A model generated the notes under the pieces. That model was not told the DNA's origin. It did not search any database and saw only the letters and a program-made list of their open reading frames with translations. A program made the position numbers and the translations under genes. This document shows, one piece after another, positions 9,621-31,140 of a stretch of DNA of 31,421 bases; the stretch's first letter is position 1; each line of letters starts with the position of its first letter. Origin of the DNA: a virus; IMG/VR virus record IMGVR_UViG_3300017731_000019, positions 1 to 31,421 of that record, one strand, 5' to 3'.

Positions 9621-11075
9621 ATGAGTTTATCTCCACAATTTGGTAGTATTATTCCAAGTCCGATTCAAACTCCATCACCTTCAGCTTATTTAGCTTTTAA
9701 CGGTGGAGCGAATGACTTTGCGCAACAATATTTACCAGAAATTTACGAACAAGAAGTAGAGCGTTATGGAAACAGAACGTTATCTGGCTTTTTGAGAATG
9801 GTTGGGGCAGAAATGCCAATGACCTCAGATCAAGTAATCTGGTCTGAACAAAATAGATTACATATATCCTATGACAACTGTAGCGTAGCTGCAGGAGGAG
9901 GAGCTGGTGCTGGTTTAGCATCTGTTGTTACAATTCCAGTTGGTGCAGGTGTAACTAACGTTATATCTATTAACGATACTGTTGTACTTTTAGACCCTAA
10001 CGGTCAAGAAGCTAAAGGTATTGTTACAGCAAGAGCTGCTGGTAACGTAACAGTTCAACCATTTGCTAACGCAACATTTGATGCACAGGGAATTAGTATT
10101 GCTGCTGCAACAATTAAAATGTTTGTTTATGGTTCTGACTACACTAAAGGAACTAGCTTAGCTGCTGGTGGTGTAGGTAATTCAAACGCTAGAATAAGCG
10201 TTGACCCTTCATTCACACAGTTTTCTAACTCACCAGTGATCATAAGAGATCAGTACGTTGTTACTGGATCTGATATGGCACAGATTGGTTGGGTTGAAGT
10301 TGCTACTGAAGATGGTGCTTCTGGATACCTTTGGTATTTAAAAGCTGAATCTGAAACTAGATTAAGATTCGAAGATTACTTAGAAATGGCAATGGTAGAA
10401 GGTGAATTAAACGCTAACGTTAATGGTGCTGCAGGAAGTTATGCTACTGCTGTTTTACCAGGTACGCAAGGTTTATTTGCTGCTATTAGAGCTAGAGGTA
10501 ATGTAAACGTTGGTTTTACAGCGGCTGCAGGACTTGATGAGTTTGATGCTATTCTTAAAAACCTAGATACTCAAGGAGCTATTGAAGAAAACATGTTATT
10601 CTTACAGAGACAAACATCTCTTGATTTTGATGATATGTTAGCTTCTATCTCTGGTGGTTTCGCTGGTGGTACTGCTTTCGGTTTATTCGAAAATTCAGAA
10701 GAAATGGCACTTAACTTAGGTTTCTCTGGTTTTAGAAGAGGTTCTTATGACTTCTATAAAACTGATTGGAAATACTTAAACGACGCTTCTACAAGAGGTG
10801 CTATCGTTGGTGTTAATTCAATTGAAGGTGTATTAGTTCCTGCTGGAACAAGCACAGTTTATGATCAAATCTTAGGTACTAACATTAGAAGACCTTTCTT
10901 ACATGTAAGATATAGAGCTTCTCAAGGTGACGACAGAAGAATGAAATCATGGTTAACTGGTGCTGCTGGTGGTGCATTTACTTCAACTCTTGATGCTATG
11001 GAAGTTAACTTCCTATCTGAAAGATGTTTAGTAACTCAAGCTGCTAACAACTTCGTTTTATTCCAAGGATTATAG
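9621..11075 (+). CDS. Major capsid protein (484 aa)
   Basis: This 484-residue protein follows the scaffold-like gene and precedes a strong hairpin, the classic place for the major capsid gene. Composition fits an abundant shell protein: Gly/Ala-rich, balanced charge and a single Trp-poor body. An N-terminal arm (residues 1-35) is followed by EIYEQEVERYGNRTLSGFLR and MPMTSDQVIWSEQNR, the segment type seen at the start of HK97-fold phage capsids. A region around 80-180 is beta-rich and may be an inserted domain (AAGGGAGAGLASVVTIPVGA). The HK97 fold itself is inferred from role. The codons for Gly, Ala and Asn look more uniform than in neighbours (many GGT, GCT and AAC), consistent with high expression. 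Confidence 0.85.
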   Translation: MSLSPQFGSIIPSPIQTPSPSAYLAFNGGANDFAQQYLPEIYEQEVERYGNRTLSGFLRMVGAEMPMTSDQVIWSEQNRLHISYDNCSVAAGGGAGAGLASVVTIPVGAGVTNVISINDTVVLLDPNGQEAKGIVTARAAGNVTVQPFANATFDAQGISIAAATIKMFVYGSDYTKGTSLAAGGVGNSNARISVDPSFTQFSNSPVIIRDQYVVTGSDMAQIGWVEVATEDGASGYLWYLKAESETRLRFEDYLEMAMVEGELNANVNGAAGSYATAVLPGTQGLFAAIRARGNVNVGFTAAAGLDEFDAILKNLDTQGAIEENMLFLQRQTSLDFDDMLASISGGFAGGTAFGLFENSEEMALNLGFSGFRRGSYDFYKTDWKYLNDASTRGAIVGVNSIEGVLVPAGTSTVYDQILGTNIRRPFLHVRYRASQGDDRRMKSWLTGAAGGAFTSTLDAMEVNFLSERCLVTQAANNFVLFQGL

Positions 11076-13974: not shown

Positions 13975-16900
13975 ATGGCAAAAGTAACCAATAATTTCAT
14001 TAAAGGTAGAATGAATAAAGATCTTGATGATCGATTATTACCTAGAGATGAATATAGAAATGCAGTAAATGCTCAGGTAAGTAGATCTGAAGGTCCTAAT
14101 GTTGGAGCATTAGAAAATGTTTTAGGAAATATTTTATCTTTTGATTTTAGAGAATTATGTAATAATGATAATTTATTTTCTATAGGTTATTGCACTGACG
14201 AAATAAATAATAGAGTTTTTTTATTTTTAACAGATAACACAGGTGATGCTTATAAAGTTTCTTCTGGATCAGGTAAGACTTCTTACATAGTAATGTATAA
14301 TGCGATTACCGAAGCAGGTTCTATATTAGTTAATGGTGATTTTTTAAATTTTTCTACAATGTTCCCAATAACTGGTGTAAATATATTAGAAGATTTATTG
14401 TTTTGGACAGATAATAGAAACCAACCAAGAGTAATAAATATATCTCTAGCTAATCCAAACAACGGTAGTAATCCCGCCTACTATACAACTGAAGATCAAA
14501 TATCTGTTGCTAAATACAACCCTTATCAACCAATAGAATTATATAGACCAGCTTCTAATACAGCAACTGATTACGAAACATCTATGTATGATGTTGTAAG
14601 TAGGTATTATCCTGATGGTGGTGAAGGTGTTACAACCCAACAATATCAAAGTAGTGGTACAACAATGAGAATTGCTAGAGCAGGCTATCAAGGTGATTTA
14701 CCTTATGGTGCTACTATAGCTTATATTAAAGATGGTGAGTTTTTTGAAACAGGTCAAACGGTAACTGCTGTATCAGGTGCAAACAACACTTATTTTCAAC
14801 TAACTGTTCCAACAGAATCCCCTACATACACTATAGACACTGGCACAACCGTTATATTTAATTACAACCCTTATTATCAAATTGATTACAATGGTGATTC
14901 AGATTATTTAGAAGAATTATTTGTAAGATTTGCTTATAGATATAAGTTTGAAAATGGTGAATACTCTATAATGTCACCGTTTACTCAAGAATGTTTTATA
15001 CCAAAACAAGATGGTTATTTTAGATATAAGGTAAATGAAGAAAGTGCTACAGCAGGTGTGGGTGCTAAAAATAATAGTCCTATACTGGATATTCAAGATG
15101 AAGAAGATACCTATAGAAGTACTGTTGTTGAATTTATGGAAAATAAAGTTAATAAAATAACATTAAGAATACCATTACCGGCAACTTCTAGTAATTTAAA
15201 TAAAACTTTTAAAATAACAGATATAGATATATTGTATAAAGAATCTAATTCAAACAATATAAATGTTATTGAAACAGTTCCAATATCTAGGGTAAAAAAT
15301 GGATATGGTAGAGCGGATGTAAACGGCGCAACAACTACTACTACATCTGTAGCTATAGACAATGTATCAGGTTCTATTAAAGTAGGTGCTTTAGTTAGTG
15401 GAGATGGTATAGTTAACAACCCTACTGTAGTAAGTTATGACGGTGGAAGTGCTCTTGTTTTATCTACTCCTCAAAGTTTAGCAAATAACGCTGGTTTAAC
15501 GTTTGGTGATTCTAGTGTTTTTGAATATGAATATCAATCTACAAAACCCTATAAAGTTTTACCTTCTAGTGAAACAACAAGAACATATGACAAAATACCT
15601 GTAAGAGCTTTGTCTCAAGAAATTATAAGTAATAGAGTAGTGTATGGAAATTTCTTAGATAAACACACTCCTCCAAATACTATAGATTATAATGTTGCGG
15701 TAAGCGCAAAATCTGATTTTAATTTAGGTACAGCAACAACTACAAACACTGCTTTAGAACCTCAAGGAGAAACTGTTATTGCTATAAATACACCAACTGG
15801 TTCATGGGCAAATGGATATGTAGTAACATCTAATGTTGCTGGAGCAATTCCAGGTAATACTGTTATTGCTTCAAATACTGGTACTACAATTACATTATCT
15901 GCCGCGTTAGGTGGTGCTTTAGCCGCGAATTCAACGCTTACTTTTACCGCGCCTAACAATGTAAGATACACAACAAGTAAAATAGAATATCCTAACCACT
16001 CGTTAAAACAAAATAGAAATTATCAAGTAGGTATAGTATTATCAGATAAGTTTGGTAGACAATCTACAGTAATATTATCTGAGGGAGATAGCTCTGTTAA
16101 ATTTAATAATGAATCTTATTTAGGTTCTACTGTTTTTTCAAGATACATAGCTTCAAGTGTAGAAGCTTTATCTTTTCCTGGAAATTCTTTAAAAGTTTTA
16201 TTTAATAATCCTATATCAGGTGGAACAACAGGTGTATATAATGGTGATCCTACTAGTGTAGATTATAATCCATTAGGTTGGTACTCTTATAAAGTAGTTG
16301 TAAAACAAACAGAACAAGAATATTACAATGTTTATTTACCTGGTGTAATGGCTGCTTATCCTACAGATCCAACTAAAGAATTAGGTAAAACATCTCACGC
16401 TGTATTATTTAATGATAATATTAATAAAGTCCCTAGAGATTTAATAGAAGTAGGACCAGAACAAAAACAATTTAGAAGTAGTGTTGTATTACACGGAAGA
16501 GTAGAAAATGTAAACAGTACTGATGTTTGGCAGAATAATGCTCAATATTATCCTGGAAGTATTGCTCCTATAGTGAGTGTTATAGCTACTGATGATGATA
16601 TGTTTAACGGTATATCTCAAACTGGCTACGTTGGAAGTCCAGATTTTTATAATGTTATTTCAAATCCTTTAATAGGAAGAATTAATACACCTTCTGGAAA
16701 ATTTGGTGTGGCGTCGGTTATAACAACGGCAGATGCTTTAGCTGCTACAGCTACAACACCAGCCGCAACTTTAAGTGAAATAAATATAGACATAAGTACT
16801 ATTGATCCTATATTTACCTCTGGTGGAAATCCAGTGCCTGGAAACAGTATAAGAGTTGGTCAAACAATAACTGGACCTGGTATAGCTGATGGAACAACTA

Positions 16901-18171
16901 TAATACAAGCTCAAAACGACAATCCAGCTTGGCAAATAACATTAAGTCAACCACATTCAGGTGTTAACGCGGGAGATACTTTCACCTTTACACCAACAAA
17001 TGATTCTCCATTTATGGGTTGGGTTACAATGCCTCAGTTAGCTGTTATGGAAACAGATCCTGTAGAATCTAATTTAGATATATTTTGGGAAACAAGCACA
17101 GCTGGTTTGATAACTGATTTAAATCAAGCAATATCAGGTGGTACTGCTGAAGGTGTTTCGTTTGGTTTTAATACTAATGACTTTGATGAAGGAATAAATA
17201 CACAAGTAGGAAACAATGAAATGTGTTCATCAGATTTTTCTATACTAGATCAATTTGGTAACACAATAGTTTACGCGGCAACTAATCCACCTCAATTTCA
17301 ATTAGTAGAGGTTAGAGATTTTAATAACAATGTAATTACTAGTACTAATGAAGGAGTTAGTAATACAGCGGTGTTTAATTTAGTAAGAGATGGTAATAAC
17401 TATAATGTAAAGGTTCAAGATACTTTTTACTATAGCAATCAGCACGCTACTAATGATACTTATTCTTTTAAATTTGAAATTAACCACGCTGGTATTCAGA
17501 CGTTTATTACAAAACAACCTGTGTCTTTGATAAATTTAGCTCCTGTAGTTTTAGCCAGTACATGTGGTAATCCTCCTATTTATGTTCCAGGAACCGGTAA
17601 TGGTTCAAATGCTTTAGGAACTTTTAAAGTTCTTCAAGCAACAAATGGAGCTGCTTTTGGACTAGGAGTAACAAATCCTCAAGCTTGGAAAGATTTAACA
17701 TGGAGACTTACAGTTACTAAAGGTGGTGTAGATTATGGTCCTCAAGGAAGCGGCGCGGTACAATTGATTCAATCACGGGTTAATAATTATTGGAGTGTTA
17801 ACTGTAATTTTACTGGAGGTGATACTCCTAATAGTATGGTAGATGGACAATATGCTTGTGTAGCTACCGTGGAAGATGCCGGTGCTTTAACTGCTACGTG
17901 TAATTTTACTTTAGATATACAAAGAACACCTTGTTATACTTGGAAATATACATGGACTGATAGTGGTGATTTTATATCACTTAACTATACTGATTGTGAG
18001 GGTGAACAAAGAAACATAGGATTTTTTGACACCAATCCGGGAGGACTTGGTAATACTGGTAACTACGTATGTGCTCAAGACACTACTTATACACAAAATA
18101 GTTTAGGTACTAAGTTTACTAAACTAGCATTAAATAATCCTGATCCATTCAACACTTGTAATGGGTTGTAA
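13975..18171 (+). CDS. Tail nozzle-like protein with three inserted beta modules (1,398 aa)
   Basis: The N-terminus (NNFIKGRMNKDLDDRLLPRD, then EYRNAVNAQVSRSEGPNVGA) is a signature I associate with large tail proteins of marine phages, in the position of T7 gp12. The rest is long and beta-rich with many Asn, Thr, Gly and Tyr residues. Three related inserts occur at residues about 452-511, 587-658 and 923-1006. Each has a Thr/Ala-rich entry, a 'G-x-x-I/V-x-G/N' turn, 'GTTI', 'ITLS' or similar strands and an 'AG.TFTFT'-type end. The C-terminal 200 residues contain Cys-rich Ig-like stretches (TATCNFTLDIQRTPCYTWKY). Likely role: tail tube or nozzle and host contact. Length well exceeds T7 gp12 (about 794). 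Confidence 0.7.
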   Translation: MAKVTNNFIKGRMNKDLDDRLLPRDEYRNAVNAQVSRSEGPNVGALENVLGNILSFDFRELCNNDNLFSIGYCTDEINNRVFLFLTDNTGDAYKVSSGSGKTSYIVMYNAITEAGSILVNGDFLNFSTMFPITGVNILEDLLFWTDNRNQPRVINISLANPNNGSNPAYYTTEDQISVAKYNPYQPIELYRPASNTATDYETSMYDVVSRYYPDGGEGVTTQQYQSSGTTMRIARAGYQGDLPYGATIAYIKDGEFFETGQTVTAVSGANNTYFQLTVPTESPTYTIDTGTTVIFNYNPYYQIDYNGDSDYLEELFVRFAYRYKFENGEYSIMSPFTQECFIPKQDGYFRYKVNEESATAGVGAKNNSPILDIQDEEDTYRSTVVEFMENKVNKITLRIPLPATSSNLNKTFKITDIDILYKESNSNNINVIETVPISRVKNGYGRADVNGATTTTTSVAIDNVSGSIKVGALVSGDGIVNNPTVVSYDGGSALVLSTPQSLANNAGLTFGDSSVFEYEYQSTKPYKVLPSSETTRTYDKIPVRALSQEIISNRVVYGNFLDKHTPPNTIDYNVAVSAKSDFNLGTATTTNTALEPQGETVIAINTPTGSWANGYVVTSNVAGAIPGNTVIASNTGTTITLSAALGGALAANSTLTFTAPNNVRYTTSKIEYPNHSLKQNRNYQVGIVLSDKFGRQSTVILSEGDSSVKFNNESYLGSTVFSRYIASSVEALSFPGNSLKVLFNNPISGGTTGVYNGDPTSVDYNPLGWYSYKVVVKQTEQEYYNVYLPGVMAAYPTDPTKELGKTSHAVLFNDNINKVPRDLIEVGPEQKQFRSSVVLHGRVENVNSTDVWQNNAQYYPGSIAPIVSVIATDDDMFNGISQTGYVGSPDFYNVISNPLIGRINTPSGKFGVASVITTADALAATATTPAATLSEINIDISTIDPIFTSGGNPVPGNSIRVGQTITGPGIADGTTIIQAQNDNPAWQITLSQPHSGVNAGDTFTFTPTNDSPFMGWVTMPQLAVMETDPVESNLDIFWETSTAGLITDLNQAISGGTAEGVSFGFNTNDFDEGINTQVGNNEMCSSDFSILDQFGNTIVYAATNPPQFQLVEVRDFNNNVITSTNEGVSNTAVFNLVRDGNNYNVKVQDTFYYSNQHATNDTYSFKFEINHAGIQTFITKQPVSLINLAPVVLASTCGNPPIYVPGTGNGSNALGTFKVLQATNGAAFGLGVTNPQAWKDLTWRLTVTKGGVDYGPQGSGAVQLIQSRVNNYWSVNCNFTGGDTPNSMVDGQYACVATVEDAGALTATCNFTLDIQRTPCYTWKYTWTDSGDFISLNYTDCEGEQRNIGFFDTNPGGLGNTGNYVCAQDTTYTQNSLGTKFTKLALNNPDPFNTCNGL
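15328..15507 (+). other. Beta module insert A in nozzle-like protein
   Basis: Residues about 452-511 form the first copy of a repeated module: a Thr-rich start, GALVSGDGIVNNPTVVSYDG, and an end NNAGLTFG. It matches the pattern of inserts B (15733-15948) and C (16741-16992). Confidence 0.6.
15733..15948 (+). other. Beta module insert B in nozzle-like protein
   Basis: Residues about 587-658: a Thr-rich entry (ATTTNTALEPQGETV), then GAIPGNTVIASNTGTTITLS and the end ANSTLTFT. It is the clearest copy of the module and lies inside a stretch that otherwise reads continuously from DYNVAVSAKSDFNLG to NVRYTTSKIEYPNHS. Confidence 0.6.
16741..16992 (+). other. Beta module insert C in nozzle-like protein
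   Basis: Residues about 923-1006: entry AATATTPAATLSEINIDIS, then GQTITGPGIADGTTIIQAQN, ITLSQPHSGVNAGDTFTFTP. It shares the 'G-x-x-I-x-G-x-G-I-x-x-G-T-x-I' core typical of beta modules found in many phage tail proteins. Confidence 0.6.
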
Positions 18172-18201: not shown

Positions 18202-19674
18202 ATGGCTGCTATAATAGAAGTTAAATACTTCAATACATTTCTTCTAAAGAAAGTAAACCAAACAATTTCAACTCCTAGTTATGGAAACATACCTTCTTGG
18301 AATGGTTCTATGGGTATACCCGCCGCTAAAGGAGGTTATCCTATATCTGCTGCAGATGTTCCTAAAAATTGGGTTATAGAAGAATCTAGAATTAATGGTG
18401 GTTATAATAATACTTCAGTTTCTTTTGGTGCTAAAGCTTATTTAGTAGAAGAAGAACCTAATGGGTCTATACGTGGAAACTCTTTAATATATTCAGGTAT
18501 ATTTAATTCTAGAACAGGTATAAATAACACCAACGTGTTTTCAGTTGGTGATAACATAGTTAAATCTGTAGACCCAGCAAATGGATCTATACAAAAACTT
18601 TATGCTGAAGACACTAATTTAAATATATTTCAAGAATTAAAAATTAGTAGAGCTTTAATTGATAAAGACGCTATATATTCTGCTGAAGGCGGTGGAACTG
18701 TTACTAGTGCTAATCTTGTTATTGGTGCTATTCAACCTTACGCGGGTAAATACGGTATTAGTAACGATCCTACAAGCTTTGCGGTATACGGTACAGATAA
18801 GTATTTTACTGATAGAAACAATGGAACTGTTTTAAAATTATCTGGAGGTTTAGTTGAGATATCTAGAGCTAATATGATAGATTATTTTAGAGATAGATTA
18901 GGATCAGGTATTACAGTAGGTGGAGCAACAGGAAGAATTATAGGTGGTTGGGATATACATAATAAACAATATTTAGTATCTACACAAGAACCTGGAGCAC
19001 AAGCTGATACTTTAGAGGGAGGATATGAAACAGTAGCTTTTGATAACCTTGTTCAAGGTTGGACTAGTTTCTTTACATATAAACCAGAATTAATGTTTAG
19101 TTTAAACAATAAATTTTATAGTACAAAATTTGGTAGTTTATATCAGCATTATTCTCAAGGTGTAAATAGAAACTTGTTTTATTCTAATGAAGGTCAAACT
19201 ATAAAACCTACTTCTATAACTTTTGTTTTTAATGCTAACCCAAGTTCATCAAAAACATTTAAAACAGTAGAATATGAAGGAACAAATGGTTGGCAAGTTA
19301 ATTCTTTTACTTCTGATTTAACAGGAGAAAACACGGTAACAACAAATTCAAACTGGATAAATTTTCAAGATACAACCGCTCAAGTATATAGTTATACTCA
19401 GGGTCAATATGATTCAGCAGGTAATGAATATCCAAACGCAACTGTTCCACCATTTTTCTATGCTGGATTTAATAGGAAGGAAAACAAGTATGTAGCTAAT
19501 CTTATTAATAATAGTAGTGCTGCTCCTGGTGAAATAAACTTTGGTAGTTCTATATCTGGTATTAAAGGTTTTGTAGGTACAGTTACAATAGCTACTGATA
19601 CAGTTACAAATAATGGAGGAGAAAAAGAATTATTTAATGTTAGTAGTGATTTTATAGCTAACAATGGATATTAA
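18202..19674 (+). CDS. Tail structural protein, propeller-like (490 aa)
   Basis: This 490-residue protein follows the nozzle-like gene. It is rich in Gly, Asn, Tyr and Ser, with many short beta-type blocks. Recognisable segments include KLYAEDTNLNIFQELKISRA, the Gly-rich AIQPYAGKYGISNDPTSFAV (about 174-193) followed by GTDKYFTDRNNGTVLKLSGG, and NLVQGWTSFFTYKPELMFSL. The repeating 'Y-x-D-x-x-N/R-G-x-V' blocks look like blades of a propeller-type tail protein that sits beside the nozzle. No receptor-binding or enzymatic domain can be identified. It begins 30 bases after the previous stop and ends 10 bases before the cupin-like gene. Role by context: tail tip or tail-tube component. Confidence 0.65.
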   Translation: MAAIIEVKYFNTFLLKKVNQTISTPSYGNIPSWNGSMGIPAAKGGYPISAADVPKNWVIEESRINGGYNNTSVSFGAKAYLVEEEPNGSIRGNSLIYSGIFNSRTGINNTNVFSVGDNIVKSVDPANGSIQKLYAEDTNLNIFQELKISRALIDKDAIYSAEGGGTVTSANLVIGAIQPYAGKYGISNDPTSFAVYGTDKYFTDRNNGTVLKLSGGLVEISRANMIDYFRDRLGSGITVGGATGRIIGGWDIHNKQYLVSTQEPGAQADTLEGGYETVAFDNLVQGWTSFFTYKPELMFSLNNKFYSTKFGSLYQHYSQGVNRNLFYSNEGQTIKPTSITFVFNANPSSSKTFKTVEYEGTNGWQVNSFTSDLTGENTVTTNSNWINFQDTTAQVYSYTQGQYDSAGNEYPNATVPPFFYAGFNRKENKYVANLINNSSAAPGEINFGSSISGIKGFVGTVTIATDTVTNNGGEKELFNVSSDFIANNGY

Positions 19675-20129: not shown

Positions 20130-20810
20130 ATGAGTTTTTTATTAGGATCCGCAGCAATAAGCGCGGGTACAAGCATACTCGGTGGTATCATTGGTGGTGG
20201 TAAAGCTAGAAGAGCAAGGCGAAGAGCTGCTAAGAAATTAAAAGCGATGAATGCTAAAATGGCACAATTAGAAGCTAATAGACAAGAAATCATAAATCCT
20301 TATGAGGATTCTACTAATTTAAGTAGTATGATGAGTAATCCTATGGCTAATCTTGCTGTAGCTACTCAAGCTACTGAAATGCAGATGGAAGAAACTGATC
20401 AAGCATTGGCCAACACATTAGACACTATAAGACAAACAGGTGGTGGAGCAGGTAGCGCAACAGCTTTAGCTCAAGCTGCTTTACAATCTAAGAAAGGTAT
20501 TGCTGCTAATATTGAGGCACAAGAAAAATCTAATGAAATGGCAAAACAGCAAGGAGAACAAAGACTTCAAGACGCTAAAATAGCTGAAGAAAAAAGAATG
20601 CAGGGTCTTGATGCTGCAGGAAAACAATTTGTATTTGGCCAAAGAGAAGCAAGAGAAATGGGTCAATTAAATAGACTACAATCCCAAATAGATAACATGC
20701 AAGGAGTTAAAGCTAGAGCTGAAGCTGATCAAACAGCTGCTCTTACTGGTGCTATCTCTGGAGTAGCGGGTGCTGCTAGTTCATATTTTGGAGCAAAATC
20801 AGGAAGTTAA
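20130..20810 (+). CDS. Internal virion protein, T7 gp14-like (226 aa)
   Basis: The 226-residue protein has two hydrophobic, Gly/Ala-rich ends and a long helical charged middle. The N-terminus is SAAISAGTSILGGIIGGG (7-24), followed by a very basic patch (KARRARRRAAKKLKA). The C-terminus is AALTGAISGVAGAASSYFGA. The middle is Gln/Met/Ala-rich and coiled-coil-like. This architecture, glycine-zipper membrane segments flanking a helical core, is that of podoviral ejection proteins of the T7 gp14 type, which form a pore in the outer membrane after injection. Upstream of two larger virion-type genes, it completes a gp14-gp15-gp16-like order. Sequence identity to gp14 cannot be judged here. Confidence 0.7.
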   Translation: MSFLLGSAAISAGTSILGGIIGGGKARRARRRAAKKLKAMNAKMAQLEANRQEIINPYEDSTNLSSMMSNPMANLAVATQATEMQMEETDQALANTLDTIRQTGGGAGSATALAQAALQSKKGIAANIEAQEKSNEMAKQQGEQRLQDAKIAEEKRMQGLDAAGKQFVFGQREAREMGQLNRLQSQIDNMQGVKARAEADQTAALTGAISGVAGAASSYFGAKSGS

Positions 20811-20821
20811 AAATATAGGAA

Positions 20822-21907
20822 ATGGAAAATCAAAATATACACATAAATTTATTAATAAAGCAAATGTTACAAAGTGATAACATGGCTTATGTTCCTGGTT
20901 ATCTAAGCTCTAAAGTAAATATTGATTACGGTGTTTTAAATAAAGCATATCAAGACACGGGTAGAATATACGCTAAATTAAAAGCTAGTCTAGAAAAAGG
21001 TAGTTGTGGAGATTGTATCAAAGAACAAAAAATGTTAACATATTTAGAAAGTGCTCCTAAATTATCATTAGATTTTTTAAGTAATGTTATGGGTGAATTA
21101 CAAATAGTAGAAACATCAAACTATGATCCTAACAATTACTTTGGATTCATGGTTGCTAATTGTATTATTACTAAAAAACCAGGTTTTTCTAAAACTGATG
21201 GATATGATATTGGTTTAAAATTATTAAACAATGGTACACAAGAATTAACTTTTAGTGGTCCTTTATTAAAAGAATCTTTAATTATTAATAGTGCTGCTTT
21301 ACAAAGTTTATTAGACGCAGATACATCTATGGTAGTTGAAACTCCAGATATTAATAAAAATATGACAGAACTACTAGTTCAATCTGGATTATTTATGCCA
21401 GAAGATGTTGGTGAAGATGGTCAATTATCTGCTAGTGCTAAAATATCAGAAGAATTTATTTTAAAATTTAATGGTGAACCTGATTACGAAATAATTGATA
21501 TTGGTGGTGGTAAAGGAAGAAATGTATTAAAATTTGATATGGATAAGATTGAAAGGAAAATACAACCTTTTATAAACGCTGAAGTTGCTGGGATTCTTTC
21601 AGCAGAACAAGAAGCCGTAGCAGCTTGGAATGTTTATTTAGCTAAACTAAGTAGTCCAGAAGAAGACGATCAAATGGTTCAAAACGCTAACGCTGGTGGT
21701 GAGTCTTGGTCTTATGAAAAAGATTTACCATTACATCAAGATAAAAAAATATTATTTGGAAAACAATATAAAGAATTTTTTATAAAAAATTATTTAGTAC
21801 AATTCTTAACTAATAAACTACCAAGTGTAGAAGAAGATGCTGCTGTGTTTGATTTACAAGAAGGTATAGATGCTAAGGCTCAAAAAATAATGGGTGATAA
21901 CCAATAA
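20822..21907 (+). CDS. Internal virion-region protein, gp15 position (361 aa)
   Basis: This 361-residue, acidic, mixed alpha/beta protein lies between the gp14-like and giant genes, where T7 has gp15. The N-terminal half has a CxxC pair (C62 and C65 in GSCGDCIKEQK) and helices (MLTYLESAPKLSLDFLSNVM). The centre is beta-rich around ILKFNGEPDYEIIDIGGGKG. No membrane segment or catalytic motif is evident. The C-terminal part is helical and acidic. The function is assigned only by position; it could also be a cargo or assembly protein. The start ATG follows ATATAGGA, the nearest thing to a Shine-Dalgarno-like tract in the window. Confidence 0.6.
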   Translation: MENQNIHINLLIKQMLQSDNMAYVPGYLSSKVNIDYGVLNKAYQDTGRIYAKLKASLEKGSCGDCIKEQKMLTYLESAPKLSLDFLSNVMGELQIVETSNYDPNNYFGFMVANCIITKKPGFSKTDGYDIGLKLLNNGTQELTFSGPLLKESLIINSAALQSLLDADTSMVVETPDINKNMTELLVQSGLFMPEDVGEDGQLSASAKISEEFILKFNGEPDYEIIDIGGGKGRNVLKFDMDKIERKIQPFINAEVAGILSAEQEAVAAWNVYLAKLSSPEEDDQMVQNANAGGESWSYEKDLPLHQDKKILFGKQYKEFFIKNYLVQFLTNKLPSVEEDAAVFDLQEGIDAKAQKIMGDNQ

Positions 21908-21918
21908 AATTAAATTAA

Positions 21919-24900
21919 ATGACTAAACAAGAATACGTAGCAAGTTTAATAAGACAAGGCAACCTAAGTAGTCAAAAAATGTATGAGATGACTAAGGCTT
22001 GGGAAGCTGAAAATGCTGAACCAGAAGTAGAAGTAGAAGAGGTAAAGACAAACGATCCTGCTGTAAATGCGGAGACCAATGCAGGATCGAAAAAGAAATC
22101 GGTCTCAAAATCGGAAGATACTTCATCGGAATTATCAGAAGAAGAAAAAGCAGAAATAGCCGCTAAAGCTAAAGAAAGAACAAAAAGAATAAACTCTTTG
22201 TATCTTAAGTATAATGAAGACGGTAATCAAGCTGTTTCTGAAGAAGAAAAAACTAAATGGTTAGATAATAACACTAAACTACATAGTAACGAAGAAGTAC
22301 AAGCAATTCATGATGAATCTAGTTGGACAGATTGGTCTTTAGGATTACTTCCGTTTTACGACTCTCAAGCAGAAATAGCTGAAGAAATGCAACAAGATGA
22401 AGAACTGCAGAAGTTTAAATATAATCAAGCAAATAAAAATTATATACAACAATCACAAGAAATAACTGCAGATAAAAACTTGTCTCAAGAGGAGAAAGAG
22501 AAAAAACTAGAAGAAATTAAACCTCCACCTTTAGTAGAAGATGTTGAGCAAGAAGTGGAAGTACAGGATACAGGTGATCAATGGAAAGATGCTTCAACTA
22601 CTTTAAGTACAAAGACAGATGAAGAATTAAAAACATCTCCACTTTTTCAAACAGACGGTAAATTTGATCCTAAAAAATTAGAAGATTACAAAAATTTTAT
22701 AGAGTTAAATGATTATAGAGAGCAGTTAAGTAATACTCCTATGAAAATAAGAGGAAAAGACAATACAGCTTTTAACATGCTTTATAAAAAGCTAACAGAC
22801 AAATACGGTGAACCTACTACAGATGAGCATGGAAATGAGTTACCACCTAATATGCGTCCAGCTTATCTTGGTAAACATTTAGATAGTCTTAAAGTAGATA
22901 TAACTAAAGATTACGATAAACTACTTGATGAAGATAAAGAATTAAAAAAAGAAGAAGGTTTTTTTGACAAAGAATATTATTTACAAAAAATATCAACAAA
23001 ACAAGCTAATCCTGAAGCTGTAACAACAGCTCTTTCTTATTTACCTCAAGATTTTGCTGGAATTGAAAGTGGAGAAGAGTTGGATAAGATAATGAAAGAA
23101 TCTTATGCTAATTTTGTTAAAGATGATCCAATTTTAAAAGCTGAATGGAATTCAATACAAAAAGCAGCTCAAGGAAGAATAAAAGCTTATCAAGATGAAA
23201 TATTAAAAACAGCTGACTTAACAACTGAAGAAGGTGTTGCTGCGGCTAACTCTAAGCTTGAAGCTTATGCTAAAAAAATTACACTAGATATTTTTGAAAA
23301 TTCAGACGGATACAATAAGAGAATAGCTGACTTAGGCTTGGTAATGGATAACGCAATGGCCAAGGTAAACACTGCTTATGAAAGAGACCAACGTCCTTGG
23401 TACGATGTTTTATCAATTTCTGATGCGTTAAGAGGTGGGAACACTGGCATTGAGGGTGATGATGGTATACCTTTTAATAATACTTTAGCAAATTTAATTG
23501 AAAGTATTGGTAAAGGTGGTGTGAATTTAGTTAGTTCAGGTAAAAAAGCTTGGGCAAGTGTAGAAGCGAAAGGTGTTAGACAGGTTCAACGTGAAATAGA
23601 TGACATTAATGAAAGGTATGAAAAAGGCGAAATAGACGAAAAAACCAGAGATCAATTATTAAATAGTAAAAGAGGAGGAAAAGGTCAATTTAATTCTTTA
23701 ATAGAAGAATTAATGGAAGATAAAAAAGATGTAGAAAAATTATTTGATAGTATTCAAGATGACGAAGCTTATACTAATTTATTTAATACAGCTGATTTAT
23801 CGGATGGTATTAGTTTTCAAGAAGCTATATTTACAACAGGAGAAGCATTACCACAAATTGGTTTAGCTGTTGCTGGTACTCTTACAGGTAATCCAGTTAT
23901 GGCTGGTTTAGGAACTGCTGCAATGTTTACTCAAATGTATGGAGATAATTATTGGTCAGCTTATCAAGAGGGTATTCAAATGGATGCTAAAGCTATGGGT
24001 ATTGACTTAAACGCTTTGTCTCCTGAAGAAAGAAGAGAGTTTGAATTAAATGCTCTTAATGAAGGTAAGCATGCTAACATGGCTACTTCCGCAGCGTTTG
24101 CTGCTGTTATGACAGCTGCTGAACAATTTGGTGCTAATAAAATTTTAAAGCAAACAGAAAAAGCTTTAGGATTAGGAACTGGAGGATTAGTATCTTTTTA
24201 TAAAGGATCTTGGAGAGAAGGTGGTGAGGCATTATTAAGAGGAGCTTTGAATAAAGCAGAAGCTGGTGCTACAGAATTTGCTACAGAATGGGCTCAAGAA
24301 GTATTAGGTCAAATAGGTACAGGTTTACAAACAACAGGTAGAATCGGAGATCAATTAGATTGGGGAGCTTCATTAGAAGCTGGTAAAGCTGGTGGTGTAG
24401 TTGGTGTTATGATACCGTTTGCTAAAGCTGTTAGTCAACAATCAGCTGTAGAAATAAGAAACGTATCAAGAGATGTAGCTATAAAATTTGCTCCAAACTC
24501 TAAATACGGTAAGTTTGCTATTGAATCAGAAAAATATTTTGAAGCTGCTCAAACAAATTTAAATAACAAACTAAAAAATAATCAGCTAACAAAACAACAG
24601 TATCAAGAAGAATCTCAAAACCTATCAGATGTTAGAAATTCTCGTTTAAAAATAGATCCAAACGCTGGTCCAGATATTAGAGCTAGACAATTAGATTTAA
24701 TGGTTGAGCGTAATCAGTTAACGCGTGAGATTAAAAAGATGGACGATCCTGATTTAACAGTTGAACAACAGGAAAGATTAAACCAAGTTAAAACTCAATT
24801 AAGAGAAGTTGTAGCTGAGCAAAACCTATATAATAAATCTGGACAAGTTAGAAAAATGATTCAGAACGCTGGGAAGAAAGATGCTCAAGGTAACCCAATG

Positions 24901-27900
24901 ATTGAGTTTAGAGATGTTCAGACAGCTAAAGAAACTCAAGAAGTTGCTGATCAATTAGAAAAAGAAGGATATACTAAAGCCGCAACAAGTGCTGCTCATG
25001 GCGTGCAAATGATAAATGAAAAAACTGGGAAAGAAGTTTTACTTATAAATAATGAAGTAGCTTCTGGTAAAGGTGGTTTTGTAGGTAATGTTAATGTAGG
25101 AGCTCATGAATTTCTACATAGTGTTTTAAAGAAAACTTTACAAAATAATCCAGACGCAGCGATAGAAATGTCTAATGAAATGCGTGGTCATTTTAAGAAA
25201 TTATTAGACAGTGGAAAATTAGACATGAACTCTGAGTATGCTTTAAATCTACAGCAATACATGGATAAACCTCCAGCTGAGTTTGCAGAAGAAGCTATGA
25301 CATTATTTGCAGATGGTTTAGCAAATGGAGATATAGTTTTAAATGAAAGTAATTTACAAAAAATTAAAGATGTTTTAAGAAGGTTAATGCAATCGTTAGG
25401 TATTAAAAATGTAGAGTTTAATACAGGTAAAGATGTAGTTAACTTTTTAAAAGATTATAATAAAAGCGTTGAAAGAGGTAAACTAAACAGAGCTCAAAAG
25501 AAATTATTAGATAAATCTGCTAAAGGAAAATTATTAACAAAAGAATCTAAAGATACAAAAGAATCTAAAGATACAAAACCTAAGAAATCTAAAGCTGCTC
25601 CTAAAAAACCTAGAAAAGCTCAAAGAGAAGATCCATACCGTGATGCAAAAACTAAAAAGGAAGCAAAAGCTATAGAGAGAAGAAGAAGAAAAAAATTAAA
25701 AGAATGGATTGATGGAGATCCAAAACTAGAAGCAACATTTGCAGATTGGATTGGAGGAACTAAATATTCAAAAGCTCGTGAAACAGCTGGAATACCTCAA
25801 GCAGAATTAGATGCTATGACACCTAATCAAAGACGAGCATTAGAAGGATATTTACCTTATGAGTATAGAAAAATACCAGGCCAAGGTATGGAAGTAGTCT
25901 CTCAATTTGTGGGTAAAGGAGAAGCAGTGGCAGCGTTAAAGAAAATGATGGGGCAGACTAGAGATGGTTGGATGGGTATGACAAAAGAAAAATATTCTAT
26001 AGCTAGAACTAAACAAACACCACTTGAGGCTATAAATGATTTAATACCATCTGAGATAAAGACTAAAGATCAATTTGATACTTTCATGCGGGATAATAAA
26101 TCAGCTAAAGCAATTGCAGACGCGTTAATGCCTGGTGGAGTTATAAATAATCTTATAAGATCTCAAGAAACTAGTAGAGAGCAAGGTGATAAAATGATTG
26201 ATGAGATGTATGAACGTATATTCAACTTCAATCCTGAGGCGAAAAGAACTGATGGCACTACTGTAGGACCAAAAGGATTTGGTGAAGCAATATTTGCTAA
26301 TAGCAGATTTGCTAAAATGGTGGCAAATAAAGCGTTGTTCCAAGAAAGCGAAAAGAAAAAGCAAGAAAAGAGACAAGATGACACTACTAAACAAATAGTA
26401 GATAAAGGCGAAGTTTTAGATCTTGGTCCTGCTAATGAAGGTTATGTGTTGGCTCAAAAACCTAGTAAAACTACAGGTTTAGATTCAAAAACTGAAGATG
26501 CTATTACTAAAGCTGTAAATAAGACTTTTAAAGGAGAAGACATTAGATTTGCAGATACTAGAAACATACCTCAAGAAGTAGCTGACATTTATGGTAAAAT
26601 GTTTGGAATAAATCCAGAAACAATAGTTAATAAGAAAAGAAATTTTCAAACAACTGATGCAGAAGGTTTAACTAAAGCTAAACAATTCTTACTTAAAAAC
26701 GCAAAGAATGATTTTGATAGATTGCCAAAAGTTCAAGATGATACTGGTAGAGGTACATTTGTTCCTAAAAATGTAAAAGATGCTTTATATACTGATGGCA
26801 AATTAACCGGTAGTTTAAAAGATTACATGGATCTTATTAGAGAAAAACCAGTTAAACCTATATATAGAGATCGTGTTGGTCAAACTATTAGAGGATTATT
26901 AGGATTACATATTAGAAATCGTGTACTTGAAACAGCACAACCCGTTCAAGGTAAAAGAATACAATCAGGTGCTAAGTTTAGTATTGCTAGAAAAAAATTA
27001 ACAGGTACAAAAGCTATTAACGCTTTGTTAGAAGAAAAAGGTAATGTTGAAACTAATCTAGAAAGAAGAGTTATTAACAATAAAGATTTTGTTGAGGATT
27101 TTGAAAATAAATCAGGATTACCAATTTTTATAACTCAAAAATCTAGTAATTTTACCAATGGTAAAAAAGCTGGAGGTAAAGGTAACGACTTAGTTATAAC
27201 GGAAGAGCAGCATAACAAACCTGCGCAACAAAAAGCTAATAAGCTAGCTATTGCTAAAGGTACTAGTTATAGTCTTCGTGATGCTAGTAAAAAAGCAGCA
27301 GCAAAGTCTGATTTTGAGAAAAAAGATCAAAAATATAAAGACGAAAAAGGTAAAACTAAAACTAGAAAAGTTTATGTTACTAGTCAAATAAATGTAGTTA
27401 CAGGTAAACCATTTACATCTCAAGAATTAAAAGATATTGAACTTGTTATGGGAGGTAAAAACCTTGCTAACATTGAAAAAAATCTTGAAAATGAAGCTGC
27501 TTTAAAAAGAGGTCAAGCTTTGATTATTAATATCATGGCTGCCCAGTATAAAAAATTAAAATCAAATCCCAAAACAGCAGCAGAAGCAGATGTTCTATTA
27601 CAAAACTATAAAGAATTACTTTATAATAGTAATTTAAATAGTAATATGGGTAGAAACATGGCTGCTACTATAGGTAAAGAAAAAGGAATTGGAAAAGGTA
27701 ATAAAACAGAAGAGCATACTTATCAAGCTATTAATTTTGCTTATAGAACTTTAGAGGCTATAAGTGATATAACAAACCCTCATTACGAAGCAAATTTAAA
27801 GGGTTGGACTAAATGGGCTGGTAATAATTATTATCAAATAATTTTAACTAAAAAAACTGATAAAACATTAGATCAAACATATGACAAAGATATATTTGAT

Positions 27901-30900
27901 GCGGGTAAAGATTTAACTAAATATAATCCTAAATCCAAAGAATATCCTTTGTTAAAAGAAGCACTAGATAACGCTTTTGAAACCGGTGATTGGAGTAGCA
28001 TACCTGATTCGGATGTTAGATATTTTAACCCATATGTAAGTATTAATCCTAATACAAATTACCGTAATGATGTAACCTACGCAAAATATTATGATGTAGA
28101 AGTACCAAAGAAATTACTGAAAAATGCTAACGCTGTACTAGCTCAAAAACAAGCTTTATATAGAATAACATCTAAGACTATGCGTCCGGCTAGTGCAAAA
28201 GCTCAATTAACATTAAAACTTAAAATTGCTACAGCTAAAGAGTCTAGAGCTAGGGTTAATAGTAAAGTAGCTAGTCAAATTTTAAAACCAAATCAAACTA
28301 CTCAAGATCAAAAAAGAATAATGTTAACTTCTCTTGACACAAAAGTTAATGCTTTTAAAATAGATCCAGAACCTAAAGGTATAAGTGTTTTTGATTTTGA
28401 TGATACATTAGCTAAAACAAAAGAAAAAGTTATAGTTATTGATAAAAATGGTAAACGTAGTAAAATATCTGCTAGTCAATTTGCTGTTGACGCTGTCACA
28501 CTTGAAAAACAAGGTGCTGAATTTGATTTTAGTAACTTTGAAGGAGTATCTAAAGGAACTAAAAAAGGTCCATTAGCAGATCTTGCTTTAAAAAGACAAG
28601 ATAAGTTTGGTAGTAGTAATATATTTGTATTAACCGCTAGACCTCAAGTTGCTGCTACATCAATAAAAACATTTTTAGATGGTATAGGATTAAATATACC
28701 TTTAGATAATATAACTGGTTTAGAAGATGGATCTGCTCAAGCTAAAGCAGATTGGGTTTTAAATAAAACAGCAGAAGGATTTAATGATTTTTATTTTGCT
28801 GATGATTCTTTTGCTAATGTTGCTGGTGTTAAAGCTGTGTTGGATGGAGTTGATGTTAAAAACAAAGTACATTTAGCTAAACAAAGTAAAGCTCGTAAAT
28901 TAAATAAAGATTTTAATAAAATATTAGAAGAAGTAACTGGAACTAAAGCATATAAAAAATATTCTACAGTTAGAGCTAGATTAGAAGGAAAGAAAAAAGA
29001 TGGAGGACTTGGTAAAAGAGTTGCAAGACAATTTACGATAACCCCATCAGCTGATGATTTTGCTGGTTTAACATATGCTTTTAGAGGAGTAGGTGAACAA
29101 GGTAATAGACATCAAGCATGGATAGAGAAAAATCTTATAAAACCTTATAATAAAGCAGAACTTGAATTAATGACTGCTAAAATAACTCTTGCTAACGATT
29201 TTGCTGCTCTTAAAAAACAATTTCCTAGTCTAAAAACTAAAAGAAACATGGCTGGGATTAAAAGAAATCCTTTATTAGATCAAATAGGTGTTGGACCATA
29301 TACTAAATCACAAGCAGTAAGAGTATATATGTGGGCAAAGCAAGGTATGGATATTGAAGGTATGTCTAAAAGAGATGTTAATGCTTTGGTTAAAGCTGTT
29401 AAAGCAGATAATGAATTACAAGTGTTTGCAGATGAGGTTATATTAATTATGAAAGACGGTAAATACCCACCACCATCAAAAAATTGGTTGGCTGGAGATA
29501 TGAAGTCTGACATATTAAACGTTTTAGACAAAGGATTTAGACAAAAACTGATGGCTGAGTTTAATGAAAACGCAGATATTGTATTTAGTCCAGAAAATTT
29601 AAACAAACTAGAAGCTTTATACGGTAGTACATATGTAGAGGCTTTACGTGATTCTTTAAGAAGAATGAAATCTGGTAGTAATAGACCAGTTTATCAAGGT
29701 GGAGGATCACGTATGGTTAATGATATGCTTGACTGGCTTAACGCATCGGTTGGTGTTACAATGTTTATAAATCAAAAATCTGGATTACTTCAAACACTGT
29801 CTGCGGTAAATTTCATAAATTGGGGTGATAATAATATATATGCAGCTGCCAAAGCTTTTGCAAGTAAAGATTATTTCCCAACAGTATTAAAACTATTAAA
29901 CTCTGATTACTTAGTAAATAGACGTGATGGTTTAAAAATCAACGTAAATGAGGCTGAGTTAGTTGATGCTGGTAGACAAGGTGGTTTCCAAGGTATGGTA
30001 AGCTACTTGCTTGATAAAGGTTTTATTATTACTAGAATAATGGATAGTTTAGCTATCGCAAGTGGTGGAGCTACATTTTTTATAAATAGGAAAGCTGCAA
30101 TGCAGAAAAGAGTTAATCCAGAAACTGGGAAATTATATACAGAATCAGAAGCTGACGCAAAAGCTTTTGAGGATTTTTATGCAATTGCAGAAGAAACTCA
30201 ACAATCTAGTAATCCAAGTAAAATATCACAACAACAAGCTAGTATAGCTGGACGTGTTTTATTATCTTTCCAAAACGTTACAATGCAGTTTAATAGAAAG
30301 ACTAAAAAATCTATATTAGATTTTGTTAAAAGACGTAGAAAACCAGGTATGACTCAACGTGAAAGTGATATGAGTAACCTTTCAAGCGTAATGTATTACG
30401 TTGGTATGCAGAACTTAATATTCCACTCTTTACAACAAGCTTTATTTGGAATGTTATTTGAGGGAGATGAAGAAGAAGAGAAAGGAAGAGTAGCAAGTGT
30501 GGCAAATAGCATGTTAGATTCTTTATTATATGGTCTTGGATTTGGTGGCGCAGGTATTGCTACAATTAAAAATCTTGTAATGAGAATGTACGATGAAACG
30601 CAAAAGAAATCTCCAGATTATGAAGATCCACTTTGGGATATATTTGATGTATCTCCAGTTATAGATAGTAAAATTAGAAAACTTAGACAAGCTGCTAAAT
30701 CTTTTAGTTGGAACATGAAAGAAATAAAAAGAAGAGGTTGGAGTTTAGATAATCCTGCATATTTAGCTATTTCACAAATTATATCTGCGGCTTTTAATTT
30801 ACCTATGGATCGTGTAATGACTCTAACAAACAATATGCGTAATGCAATGGATGAAAACACTAGAATGTGGCAAAAAATAGCTTTAGTTTTAGGTTGGTCT

Positions 30901-31140
30901 CCTTATATTTTAGGTTTACCTTACTGGGGAAGACAAAGCACAATAGATCAAGAAGCAAAAGAAGACGAAAAATTAAAAGAAAATTATAAAAAATCAATTC
31001 AAGTAGTAAAAAAGAAAGGATTTACTAAAAAAATCCCATTATCAGGACCAAATCATTATAAGCCGACAGGGGTATATGGTGTTGATTATATGCAAGTAGA
31101 AAAACCTGACGGCACAATTCAATATTATGTAAAACCATGA
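21919..31140 (+). CDS. Giant multidomain internal virion protein (3,073 aa)
   Basis: At 3,073 residues this is more than twice T7 gp16 and sits last in the gp14-gp15-gp16-like series, so it is probably ejected with DNA. The N-terminus (1-120) is acidic and helical. Hydrophobic, Gly/Ala-rich stretches at about 645-675, 721-737 and 822-836 could be membrane-active. Residues about 1005-1175 hold a zincin-like HEFLH motif (1063-1067), followed by a Lys/Arg-rich linker (1205-1260). Residues about 2155-2320 are a HAD-type phosphatase domain. The C-terminal 700 residues contain GNRHQAW, INWGDNNIY and EETQQSSNPSKISQQQ (2758-2773), typical of large marine-phage virion proteins. Motifs K[FY]SxxR at 1282, 1358, 1686 and 2347 may be processing sites. 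No transglycosylase motif was found. It overlaps the next gene by ATGA. Confidence 0.8.
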   Translation: MTKQEYVASLIRQGNLSSQKMYEMTKAWEAENAEPEVEVEEVKTNDPAVNAETNAGSKKKSVSKSEDTSSELSEEEKAEIAAKAKERTKRINSLYLKYNEDGNQAVSEEEKTKWLDNNTKLHSNEEVQAIHDESSWTDWSLGLLPFYDSQAEIAEEMQQDEELQKFKYNQANKNYIQQSQEITADKNLSQEEKEKKLEEIKPPPLVEDVEQEVEVQDTGDQWKDASTTLSTKTDEELKTSPLFQTDGKFDPKKLEDYKNFIELNDYREQLSNTPMKIRGKDNTAFNMLYKKLTDKYGEPTTDEHGNELPPNMRPAYLGKHLDSLKVDITKDYDKLLDEDKELKKEEGFFDKEYYLQKISTKQANPEAVTTALSYLPQDFAGIESGEELDKIMKESYANFVKDDPILKAEWNSIQKAAQGRIKAYQDEILKTADLTTEEGVAAANSKLEAYAKKITLDIFENSDGYNKRIADLGLVMDNAMAKVNTAYERDQRPWYDVLSISDALRGGNTGIEGDDGIPFNNTLANLIESIGKGGVNLVSSGKKAWASVEAKGVRQVQREIDDINERYEKGEIDEKTRDQLLNSKRGGKGQFNSLIEELMEDKKDVEKLFDSIQDDEAYTNLFNTADLSDGISFQEAIFTTGEALPQIGLAVAGTLTGNPVMAGLGTAAMFTQMYGDNYWSAYQEGIQMDAKAMGIDLNALSPEERREFELNALNEGKHANMATSAAFAAVMTAAEQFGANKILKQTEKALGLGTGGLVSFYKGSWREGGEALLRGALNKAEAGATEFATEWAQEVLGQIGTGLQTTGRIGDQLDWGASLEAGKAGGVVGVMIPFAKAVSQQSAVEIRNVSRDVAIKFAPNSKYGKFAIESEKYFEAAQTNLNNKLKNNQLTKQQYQEESQNLSDVRNSRLKIDPNAGPDIRARQLDLMVERNQLTREIKKMDDPDLTVEQQERLNQVKTQLREVVAEQNLYNKSGQVRKMIQNAGKKDAQGNPMIEFRDVQTAKETQEVADQLEKEGYTKAATSAAHGVQMINEKTGKEVLLINNEVASGKGGFVGNVNVGAHEFLHSVLKKTLQNNPDAAIEMSNEMRGHFKKLLDSGKLDMNSEYALNLQQYMDKPPAEFAEEAMTLFADGLANGDIVLNESNLQKIKDVLRRLMQSLGIKNVEFNTGKDVVNFLKDYNKSVERGKLNRAQKKLLDKSAKGKLLTKESKDTKESKDTKPKKSKAAPKKPRKAQREDPYRDAKTKKEAKAIERRRRKKLKEWIDGDPKLEATFADWIGGTKYSKARETAGIPQAELDAMTPNQRRALEGYLPYEYRKIPGQGMEVVSQFVGKGEAVAALKKMMGQTRDGWMGMTKEKYSIARTKQTPLEAINDLIPSEIKTKDQFDTFMRDNKSAKAIADALMPGGVINNLIRSQETSREQGDKMIDEMYERIFNFNPEAKRTDGTTVGPKGFGEAIFANSRFAKMVANKALFQESEKKKQEKRQDDTTKQIVDKGEVLDLGPANEGYVLAQKPSKTTGLDSKTEDAITKAVNKTFKGEDIRFADTRNIPQEVADIYGKMFGINPETIVNKKRNFQTTDAEGLTKAKQFLLKNAKNDFDRLPKVQDDTGRGTFVPKNVKDALYTDGKLTGSLKDYMDLIREKPVKPIYRDRVGQTIRGLLGLHIRNRVLETAQPVQGKRIQSGAKFSIARKKLTGTKAINALLEEKGNVETNLERRVINNKDFVEDFENKSGLPIFITQKSSNFTNGKKAGGKGNDLVITEEQHNKPAQQKANKLAIAKGTSYSLRDASKKAAAKSDFEKKDQKYKDEKGKTKTRKVYVTSQINVVTGKPFTSQELKDIELVMGGKNLANIEKNLENEAALKRGQALIINIMAAQYKKLKSNPKTAAEADVLLQNYKELLYNSNLNSNMGRNMAATIGKEKGIGKGNKTEEHTYQAINFAYRTLEAISDITNPHYEANLKGWTKWAGNNYYQIILTKKTDKTLDQTYDKDIFDAGKDLTKYNPKSKEYPLLKEALDNAFETGDWSSIPDSDVRYFNPYVSINPNTNYRNDVTYAKYYDVEVPKKLLKNANAVLAQKQALYRITSKTMRPASAKAQLTLKLKIATAKESRARVNSKVASQILKPNQTTQDQKRIMLTSLDTKVNAFKIDPEPKGISVFDFDDTLAKTKEKVIVIDKNGKRSKISASQFAVDAVTLEKQGAEFDFSNFEGVSKGTKKGPLADLALKRQDKFGSSNIFVLTARPQVAATSIKTFLDGIGLNIPLDNITGLEDGSAQAKADWVLNKTAEGFNDFYFADDSFANVAGVKAVLDGVDVKNKVHLAKQSKARKLNKDFNKILEEVTGTKAYKKYSTVRARLEGKKKDGGLGKRVARQFTITPSADDFAGLTYAFRGVGEQGNRHQAWIEKNLIKPYNKAELELMTAKITLANDFAALKKQFPSLKTKRNMAGIKRNPLLDQIGVGPYTKSQAVRVYMWAKQGMDIEGMSKRDVNALVKAVKADNELQVFADEVILIMKDGKYPPPSKNWLAGDMKSDILNVLDKGFRQKLMAEFNENADIVFSPENLNKLEALYGSTYVEALRDSLRRMKSGSNRPVYQGGGSRMVNDMLDWLNASVGVTMFINQKSGLLQTLSAVNFINWGDNNIYAAAKAFASKDYFPTVLKLLNSDYLVNRRDGLKINVNEAELVDAGRQGGFQGMVSYLLDKGFIITRIMDSLAIASGGATFFINRKAAMQKRVNPETGKLYTESEADAKAFEDFYAIAEETQQSSNPSKISQQQASIAGRVLLSFQNVTMQFNRKTKKSILDFVKRRRKPGMTQRESDMSNLSSVMYYVGMQNLIFHSLQQALFGMLFEGDEEEEKGRVASVANSMLDSLLYGLGFGGAGIATIKNLVMRMYDETQKKSPDYEDPLWDIFDVSPVIDSKIRKLRQAAKSFSWNMKEIKRRGWSLDNPAYLAISQIISAAFNLPMDRVMTLTNNMRNAMDENTRMWQKIALVLGWSPYILGLPYWGRQSTIDQEAKEDEKLKENYKKSIQVVKKKGFTKKIPLSGPNHYKPTGVYGVDYMQVEKPDGTIQYYVKP
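24931..25443 (+). other. Zincin-like (HExxH) domain in giant protein
   Basis: Residues about 1005-1175 of the giant protein form an alpha/beta region around GAHEFLHSVLKK, with H1063, E1064 and H1067 as the catalytic triad of an HExxH site. Acidic residues in AEFAEEAMTLFADG (E1121, E1124 or E1125) are candidate third zinc ligands. Such peptidase domains occur in large polyvalent phage proteins; the substrate (self or host) is not known. Confidence 0.65.
25543..25578 (+). repeat. 18-base tandem duplication in the Lys-rich linker
   Basis: The 18-base unit GAATCTAAAGATACAAAA occurs twice in a row, encoding the repeated ESKDTK in the linker that follows the zincin-like domain. It suggests a flexible, length-variable hinge. 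Confidence 0.8.
28381..28878 (+). other. HAD phosphatase-like domain in giant protein
   Basis: Residues about 2155-2320 hold all recognisable HAD motifs in order. Motif I is VFDFDDTLA (nucleophile D2159, acid/base D2161), motif II is IFVLTARPQ (T2239) and motif III is probably K2276 in AQAKADW. Motif IV is DFYFADDSF (D2295, D2296). The motif II-IV style resembles nucleotidase or polynucleotide 3'-phosphatase-type HADs. The substrate cannot be read from the sequence. Confidence 0.8.

Follow-up and report, generated by a model that had tools for sequence, protein, structure and literature searches.

The question raised by the viral record IMGVR_UViG_3300017731_000019 from IMG/VR, whose complete stretch of 31,421 nucleotides is referred to here as the window, is what a HAD phosphatase domain and a zincin-type metallopeptidase domain are doing within one giant protein at the end of a late gene series. 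The open reading frame in question (21919..31140) lies on the plus strand, as do all the domains and late genes discussed below; it starts with ATG, runs for 3,073 codons without an internal stop and is the last gene of a series that comprises the terminase large subunit (TerL), the portal protein, the major capsid protein and further virion genes. An original prediction, made from the sequence alone, had described a single frame of 9.2 kb carrying HEFLH and a full set of HAD motifs, and these residues were found exactly where it had placed them. Homologues of the protein were found as well. The reading that we favour overall, and put forward tentatively, is that of a giant ejected polyvalent cargo protein with a zincin domain and a HAD domain that heals nucleic-acid ends.

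The HAD phosphatase domain

The HAD domain spans residues 2140-2335 (28336..28923) and carries the residues D2159, D2161, T2239, R2241, K2276, D2295 and D2296, the first two within the motif DFDDT at residues 2159-2163. With the segment starting at residue 2140, T2239, K2276, D2295 and D2296 correspond to the alignment positions T100, K137, D156 and D157. The ordered HAD pattern arose in 0 of 3,000 residue shuffles of the giant; a stronger test than shuffling is the conservation across homologues, and all six motif residues (D, D, T, K, D, D) are invariant in 75 homologous domains that show identities of 53-75%. The domain is under purifying selection, with a nonsynonymous divergence (dN) of 0.18-0.21 as opposed to a synonymous divergence (dS) of 0.5-0.8 (0.52-0.77). 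Its AlphaFold2 model, with a predicted local distance difference test score (pLDDT) of 79, matched HAD structures in Foldseek with a probability of 1.00, the neighbours in the PDB being MDP-1 (E 2e-4, the best) and the Legionella HAD phosphatases Ceg4 (7e-4) and Lem4 (3.5e-3), so that both the HAD fold and the full catalytic motifs of the original prediction are borne out. In a viral library, Foldseek retrieved proteins of uncultured viruses with up to 48% identity and, more weakly, PNKP-phosphatase proteins. The dihydroxyacetone kinase DhaM, which appeared as a profile match of the HAD in the PDB (E 0.02-0.3), was dismissed as chance. Judged by its motifs and fold, the domain is very probably a catalytically competent aspartyl-phosphate phosphatase.

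The best PDB neighbours also bring in the alternative that host proteins are the substrate of the injected HAD, since MDP-1 carries the description of a putative phosphotyrosine phosphatase, and Ceg4 and Lem4 are Legionella effectors. However, these are fold-level matches only, with 15-16% identity, which is expected for any small-capped HAD, and a role on host proteins would leave the kinase insertion and the ligase association described below unexplained; we consider it rather improbable.

The zincin-type domain

The zincin-type metallopeptidase domain occupies residues 1000-1185 (24916..25473), and its motif HEFLH (residues 1063-1067; 25105..25119) is the only HExxH in the giant, a pattern that arises in 0.65% of residue shuffles of the protein. 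Across 48 aligned zincin domains, whose mean column identity is only 26%, the invariant columns are restricted to the H, E and H of the HExxH and a downstream glutamate, the third ligand E1125 (25291-25293), which sits 58 residues past the second histidine. The same ligand set, an HExxH and a glutamate, has been described for the metallopeptidases (MPTases) of polyvalent proteins (PMC5512222). The AlphaFold2 model (pLDDT 82) consists of a helix, three strands, the HExxH helix and the Glu helix. A penicillinase repressor, the profile match of this domain in the PDB (0.24), was dismissed as chance. The domain is probably active, and, by analogy with known systems, it may process the giant itself, a suggestion made with more caution.

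Relatives and domain order

Relatives were collected from IMG/VR with the whole giant protein (14 loci), with an alignment of the HAD (598 candidate stretches, 471 of them confirmed, of which the best 80 of 471 were used) and with a kinase-bearing relative (79 further loci). After the removal of duplicates, at least 161 giants of >1,000 amino acids were available, nearly all on viral contigs, which are fragments and in part redundant; for some of the comparisons in this study the search space behind the E-values was set by us. The HExxH stands 600-1,400 residues before the HAD in 129 of the 150 giants with a complete start, and the stretch after the HAD measures about 650-850 residues in 129/138 giants with a complete end. 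Since these samples had been chosen through the HAD, the family was resampled through the late gene of 361 amino acids directly upstream of the giant (20822..21907), which served as an unbiased anchor. In this sample the HAD was present in 43/43 giants (39/39 complete and 4/4 long cut ones) and the HExxH in 32/39 complete giants; 5 of 44 genes scored as complete were left out, as they are tiny spurious open reading frames near contig ends. The giants are thus made up, in this order, of a variable N-terminus, the zincin, a variable middle, the HAD and a conserved C-terminal region, and no other enzyme domain in them is as constant as the HAD.

Several departures from this order were recorded. 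The HAD is kept and the HExxH is missing from its expected place in L027, L033, L035, L042, L071, L080 and about 15 others, most of them without a recognisable zincin. In L155, L157, L122, L124, L143 and L096 the frame stops shortly behind the HAD or encodes a short form of 916 amino acids, which may reflect splits or frameshifts that separate the C-terminal region. Stand-alone HAD proteins of 168-187 amino acids akin to the HAD of the giant are encoded at L110:2436-2957, L111:9998-10561 and L112:1744-2250; L111 is a contig of 306 kb, on which the stand-alone HAD lies near an ultraviolet (UV)-endonuclease gene.

With tblastn against 50,697 phage records, the zincin-to-HAD part gave no match, and the HAD with the C-terminus gave one weak match to an uncultured phage, so that no isolate in that collection was found to carry the giant family. 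Matches in a genome collection amounted to 13 loci, most of which are short contigs from metagenome bins assigned to taxa without relation to each other (Woesearchaeota, Aliivibrio, Clostridiales); these are read as binned phage contigs and therefore provide no host information.

Placement in the virion and probable ejection

The window has its gene order in common with Cellulophaga phage phi18:3, and the same late gene order is found in Elemovirus, to whose TerL the TerL of the window is 44% identical over 96%. The lineage is accordingly placed among the marine Bacteroidetes podoviruses akin to Elemovirus and the phi18:3 group, its homologous TerL and late gene order marking it as a relative of Elemovirus and the Pachyviridae; the host is taken from the kinship to cultured relatives. 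The positional counterpart of the giant in phi18:3, the last giant gene gp123, is annotated from tandem mass spectrometry (MS/MS) of virions. Elemovirus gp18, which is annotated as structural, has two modules in common with the window family, arranged alike: the N-terminal module matches gp18 residues 550-695 (profile match E 3.2e-4 at Z=10,000), and the zincin matches gp18 with 4.5e-5 in a search space of 10,000.

The amino acid composition points in the same direction. The giant contains 0 cysteines in 3,073 residues as opposed to 34 expected from the codon-position base composition. On average, about 5.7 cysteines per 1,000 are present in the other late genes tabulated in the window, and 146/163 homologous giants are cysteine-free. 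Cysteine is likewise absent from the ejected proteins gp15 and gp16 of T7 and gp50, gp51 and gp52 of N4, while T7 gp14 has one; of the remaining T7 and N4 proteins checked, the majority contain it. Giant ejected proteins are thought to unfold during passage through the tail (PMC12633501; PMC10172136), and an absence of cysteine would fit such a passage; it is possibly a general mark of ejected proteins. Based on the counterparts and the composition, the giant is in all likelihood a virion protein that is ejected, in agreement with the original prediction. The resemblance to a gp14-gp15-gp16 series that had been noted there holds for the last-gene position but does not extend to sequence kinship, as the profiles of the giant's modules and of two upstream genes gave no match to T7 gp14, gp15 and gp16 or to N4 gp50.

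The HAD and the zincin both lie within a late-operon structural gene, which would also suit parts for assembly or packaging that work or scaffold inside the producing cell or the head and are not effectors; in N4, the MPTase region of the virion RNA polymerase (vRNAP) is required for encapsidation (PMC5512222). However, the catalytic residues are invariant amid variable surroundings, and sister lineages with the same gene order do without the HAD, which is therefore dispensable for building such virions. An assembly role is thus judged to be improbable.

Evidence for a possible role in nucleic-acid end healing

The substrate of the HAD is approached here through its relatives. Their HAD matches the family phrog_415 ‘polynucleotide kinase’ along its full length (L003 1.8e-5, L104 9.8e-6), as do the stand-alone HAD relatives (L111 1.1e-11, L112 7.7e-15). 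Furthermore, in 31 giants (L106, L107, L113-L133, L135, L136, L138-L141, L170 and L172) a P-loop domain of about 195 amino acids interrupts the HAD between its motifs I and II, with an invariant Walker A lysine, N-x-D, DGTG and an R-N-x-x-R lid. This insertion matches Pfam AAA_33 (1.4e-16), in 31/31 cases phrog_505 ‘polynucleotide kinase’ and, in the PDB, ‘Metallophosphoesterase’ chains (4gp7 and others; 4.3e-7), which we take to be the kinase domain of Clostridium thermocellum Pnkp, as well as the polynucleotide kinase (PNK) of T4 (8.5e-4). A single origin of the insertion was rejected, since under parsimony the HAD tree requires some 10 gains or losses; the kinase insertion therefore comes and goes and behaves as a movable module. 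The HAD of L108 has an insertion of a different kind, of about 140 amino acids, near its C-terminal end. In phages, the pairing of a PNK with a HAD is known from nucleic-acid repair (PMC7824862).

A different substrate is suggested by weak nucleotidase-type HAD matches in stand-alone relatives (phrog_2643 0.021, phrog_8630 0.034). The injected HAD could accordingly dephosphorylate nucleotides or signals made of them and not nucleic-acid ends, for instance as a counter-defence enzyme directed at alarm molecules, which it would destroy; the degradation of nucleotide signals has been proposed for injected polyvalent proteins (PMC7824862), and the invariance of the HAD suits an essential early job. 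The polynucleotide kinase families match more strongly, however, and the kinase in the 31 relatives is of the polynucleotide-kinase type, which makes a nucleotide substrate unlikely in our view.

Whether DNA or RNA ends would be healed was considered with the ligases of 29 long HAD-bearing records. An ATP-dependent DNA ligase of 276-314 amino acids occurs in 17/29 and an RNA ligase above the cut-off in 0/29, the two sub-threshold matches overlapping the DNA ligases; AAA_33 was found inside the giants only, and none of three HAD-less relatives (0/3) has a DNA ligase. The HAD, with or without the kinase, could repair RNA such as cleaved host tRNA in the manner of T4 PseT, which according to its annotation acts with an RNA ligase in tRNA repair, and the inserted kinase does resemble bacterial Pnkp; given that no RNA ligase above the cut-off was found in the same records in which DNA ligases are frequent, RNA repair appears very unlikely. 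The PNK-type matches, together with DNA ligases and no RNA ligase above the cut-off, therefore favour DNA-end healing over RNA repair with moderate confidence. Among the jobs that had been proposed originally, namely end repair of injected DNA, counter-defence and nucleotide manipulation, it is end repair that gains specific support, from the kinase insertion in 31 relatives, the PNK profile matches and the DNA ligase in the same genomes. We tentatively assign the HAD to nucleic-acid end healing.

Several observations weigh against the reading of an ejected end-healing protein. With regard to the virion, no sequence link between phi18:3 gp123 and the giant was found, and an absence of cysteine is not specific to ejection, being shared by several other late genes of the window, the T7 scaffold protein gp9 and the N4 capsid protein. 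With regard to the zincin, the HExxH is not in its expected place in 21/150 giants, and the structure prediction that had been suggested for the region of residues 1005-1175 gave the expected topology but no PDB match at E <= 0.001 in Foldseek, so that the motif, the topology and the profile are the basis on which the domain is called a zincin. With regard to end healing, the TM-scores of the HAD model to its best solved neighbours are modest (about 0.45) and none of these is a PNKP; the HAD of the window itself has no Pfam or PHROG match, only its relatives do; and in a direct profile comparison with the T4 PseT phosphatase the motifs align without reaching significance. The window giant has no kinase insertion, and the protein is therefore not classed as a PNKP; the insertion of the relatives also resembles zeta toxins (2e-5). 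Finally, many phages encode a DNA ligase, and the control for the ligase association comprises three genomes.

On the end-healing reading, the giant would be packaged in the head and then pass into the cell by extrusion, together with the DNA. The zincin, judging from precedent, would cut its own polypeptide in the head or after entry and thereby free parts of it. In the first minutes of infection, the HAD would clear damaged nucleic-acid ends of 3'-phosphate or cyclic-phosphate groups, and incoming DNA that has been cut by host nucleases could then be extended or sealed at the healed ends. In some sister phages, the 5'-kinase built into the same domain would make it a complete polynucleotide kinase/phosphatase. 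The full proposal, that a widespread marine lineage injects a cysteine-free giant with a 3'-phosphatase, in some members with a 5'-kinase, which is freed by a built-in peptidase and repairs DNA before phage gene expression, is a possibility that we regard as doubtful in its entirety.

Phage DNA is most vulnerable at entry, and a repair enzyme borne by the particle would, if true, be a countermeasure that precedes gene expression, in a group of phages that is common, uncultured and marine. The natural series of giants with a HAD alone, with a HAD and a kinase, and without a HAD allows the jobs of ejected proteins to be tested. In addition, the complete absence of cysteine might serve as a simple marker by which ejected proteins are recognised from their sequence, an idea that is testable across phages.

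Remaining modules and neighbouring genes

Three further modules were delimited in the giant. The N-terminal module (residues 600-900; 23716..24618), the one common to Elemovirus gp18, has glycine-rich hydrophobic stretches. An uncharacterised module at residues 1851-2140 (27469..28338), for which no family was matched, contains a near-invariant Glu-His pair (1932-1933; E in 97% and H in 95% of 119 homologues, often as EEHxxP), which is perhaps a metal or nuclease site. The conserved C-terminal region (residues 2336-3073; 28924..31137) follows the HAD in nearly all complete giants; profiles of it gave no significant match to the three isolate giants, and a Pfam search with the whole giant and 16 diverse giants found no meaningful domain. 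The conserved virion domain of the original prediction thus survives as a real conserved region, although no known family was matched.

Upstream, the late series consists of the terminase large subunit (3747..5957), which is 63% identical to that of MW202828, the portal protein (5957..8362; phrog_6547, E 1e-141), a major capsid protein candidate (9621..11075; phrog_13704, with a weak match to Crass_capsid), a virion structural protein of 1,398 amino acids (13975..18171; phrog_14478), a virion gene of 490 amino acids without cysteine that also matches phrog_14478 (18202..19674), and a late gene of 226 amino acids, again without cysteine, which is found upstream of most giants (20130..20810). 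A GroES-like co-chaperonin gene (2922-3527) adjoins the terminase, as it does in Elemovirus and phi18:3. At the other end, a small open reading frame with a signal-peptide-like start (31137-31351) overlaps the stop codon of the giant (ATGA).

Comparison with known systems

In the literature searched, no experiments on the window protein were found. The giant resembles the polyvalent phage proteins (Iyer et al. 2017, PMC5512222), which are also very large, combine several unrelated domains around a zincin MPTase hub with an HExxH helix and a Glu helix, and are predicted to be injected with the DNA. HAD or phosphatase domains are not mentioned in the main text of that study, whereas in the giants the HAD is the most constant domain; nor is a HAD or a kinase-in-HAD in polyvalent proteins mentioned in PMC7824862 or in the open-licence literature searched.

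The N4 vRNAP (gp50) is similar in its size of about 3,500 amino acids, its ejection (predicted for the giant), its lack of cysteine and a large helical C-terminal region behind an HExxH domain. However, no module of the giant has a profile match to it, and the giant carries a HAD, with no indication of an RNA polymerase. Closer in genomic position are Elemovirus gp18 (3,694 amino acids) and phi18:3 gp123 (1,935 amino acids), giant genes that likewise end this late operon, with a virion or structural annotation and 0 cysteines; unlike the giant, neither has a HAD, and gp123 is also without an HExxH. T4 PseT and the phage PNK-HAD proteins share with the family, in its kinase-bearing relatives only, the link between a HAD phosphatase and a P-loop polynucleotide kinase, but T4 PseT is a small enzyme of two domains, of which the kinase is N-terminal, whereas in the giants the HAD is buried in a virion protein and the kinase, where present, lies between motifs I and II. 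The giant is best placed in the known class of polyvalent proteins with a zincin hub that are predicted to be injected, to which its family would add the HAD, and in some relatives the kinase-in-HAD, as a new fixed part.
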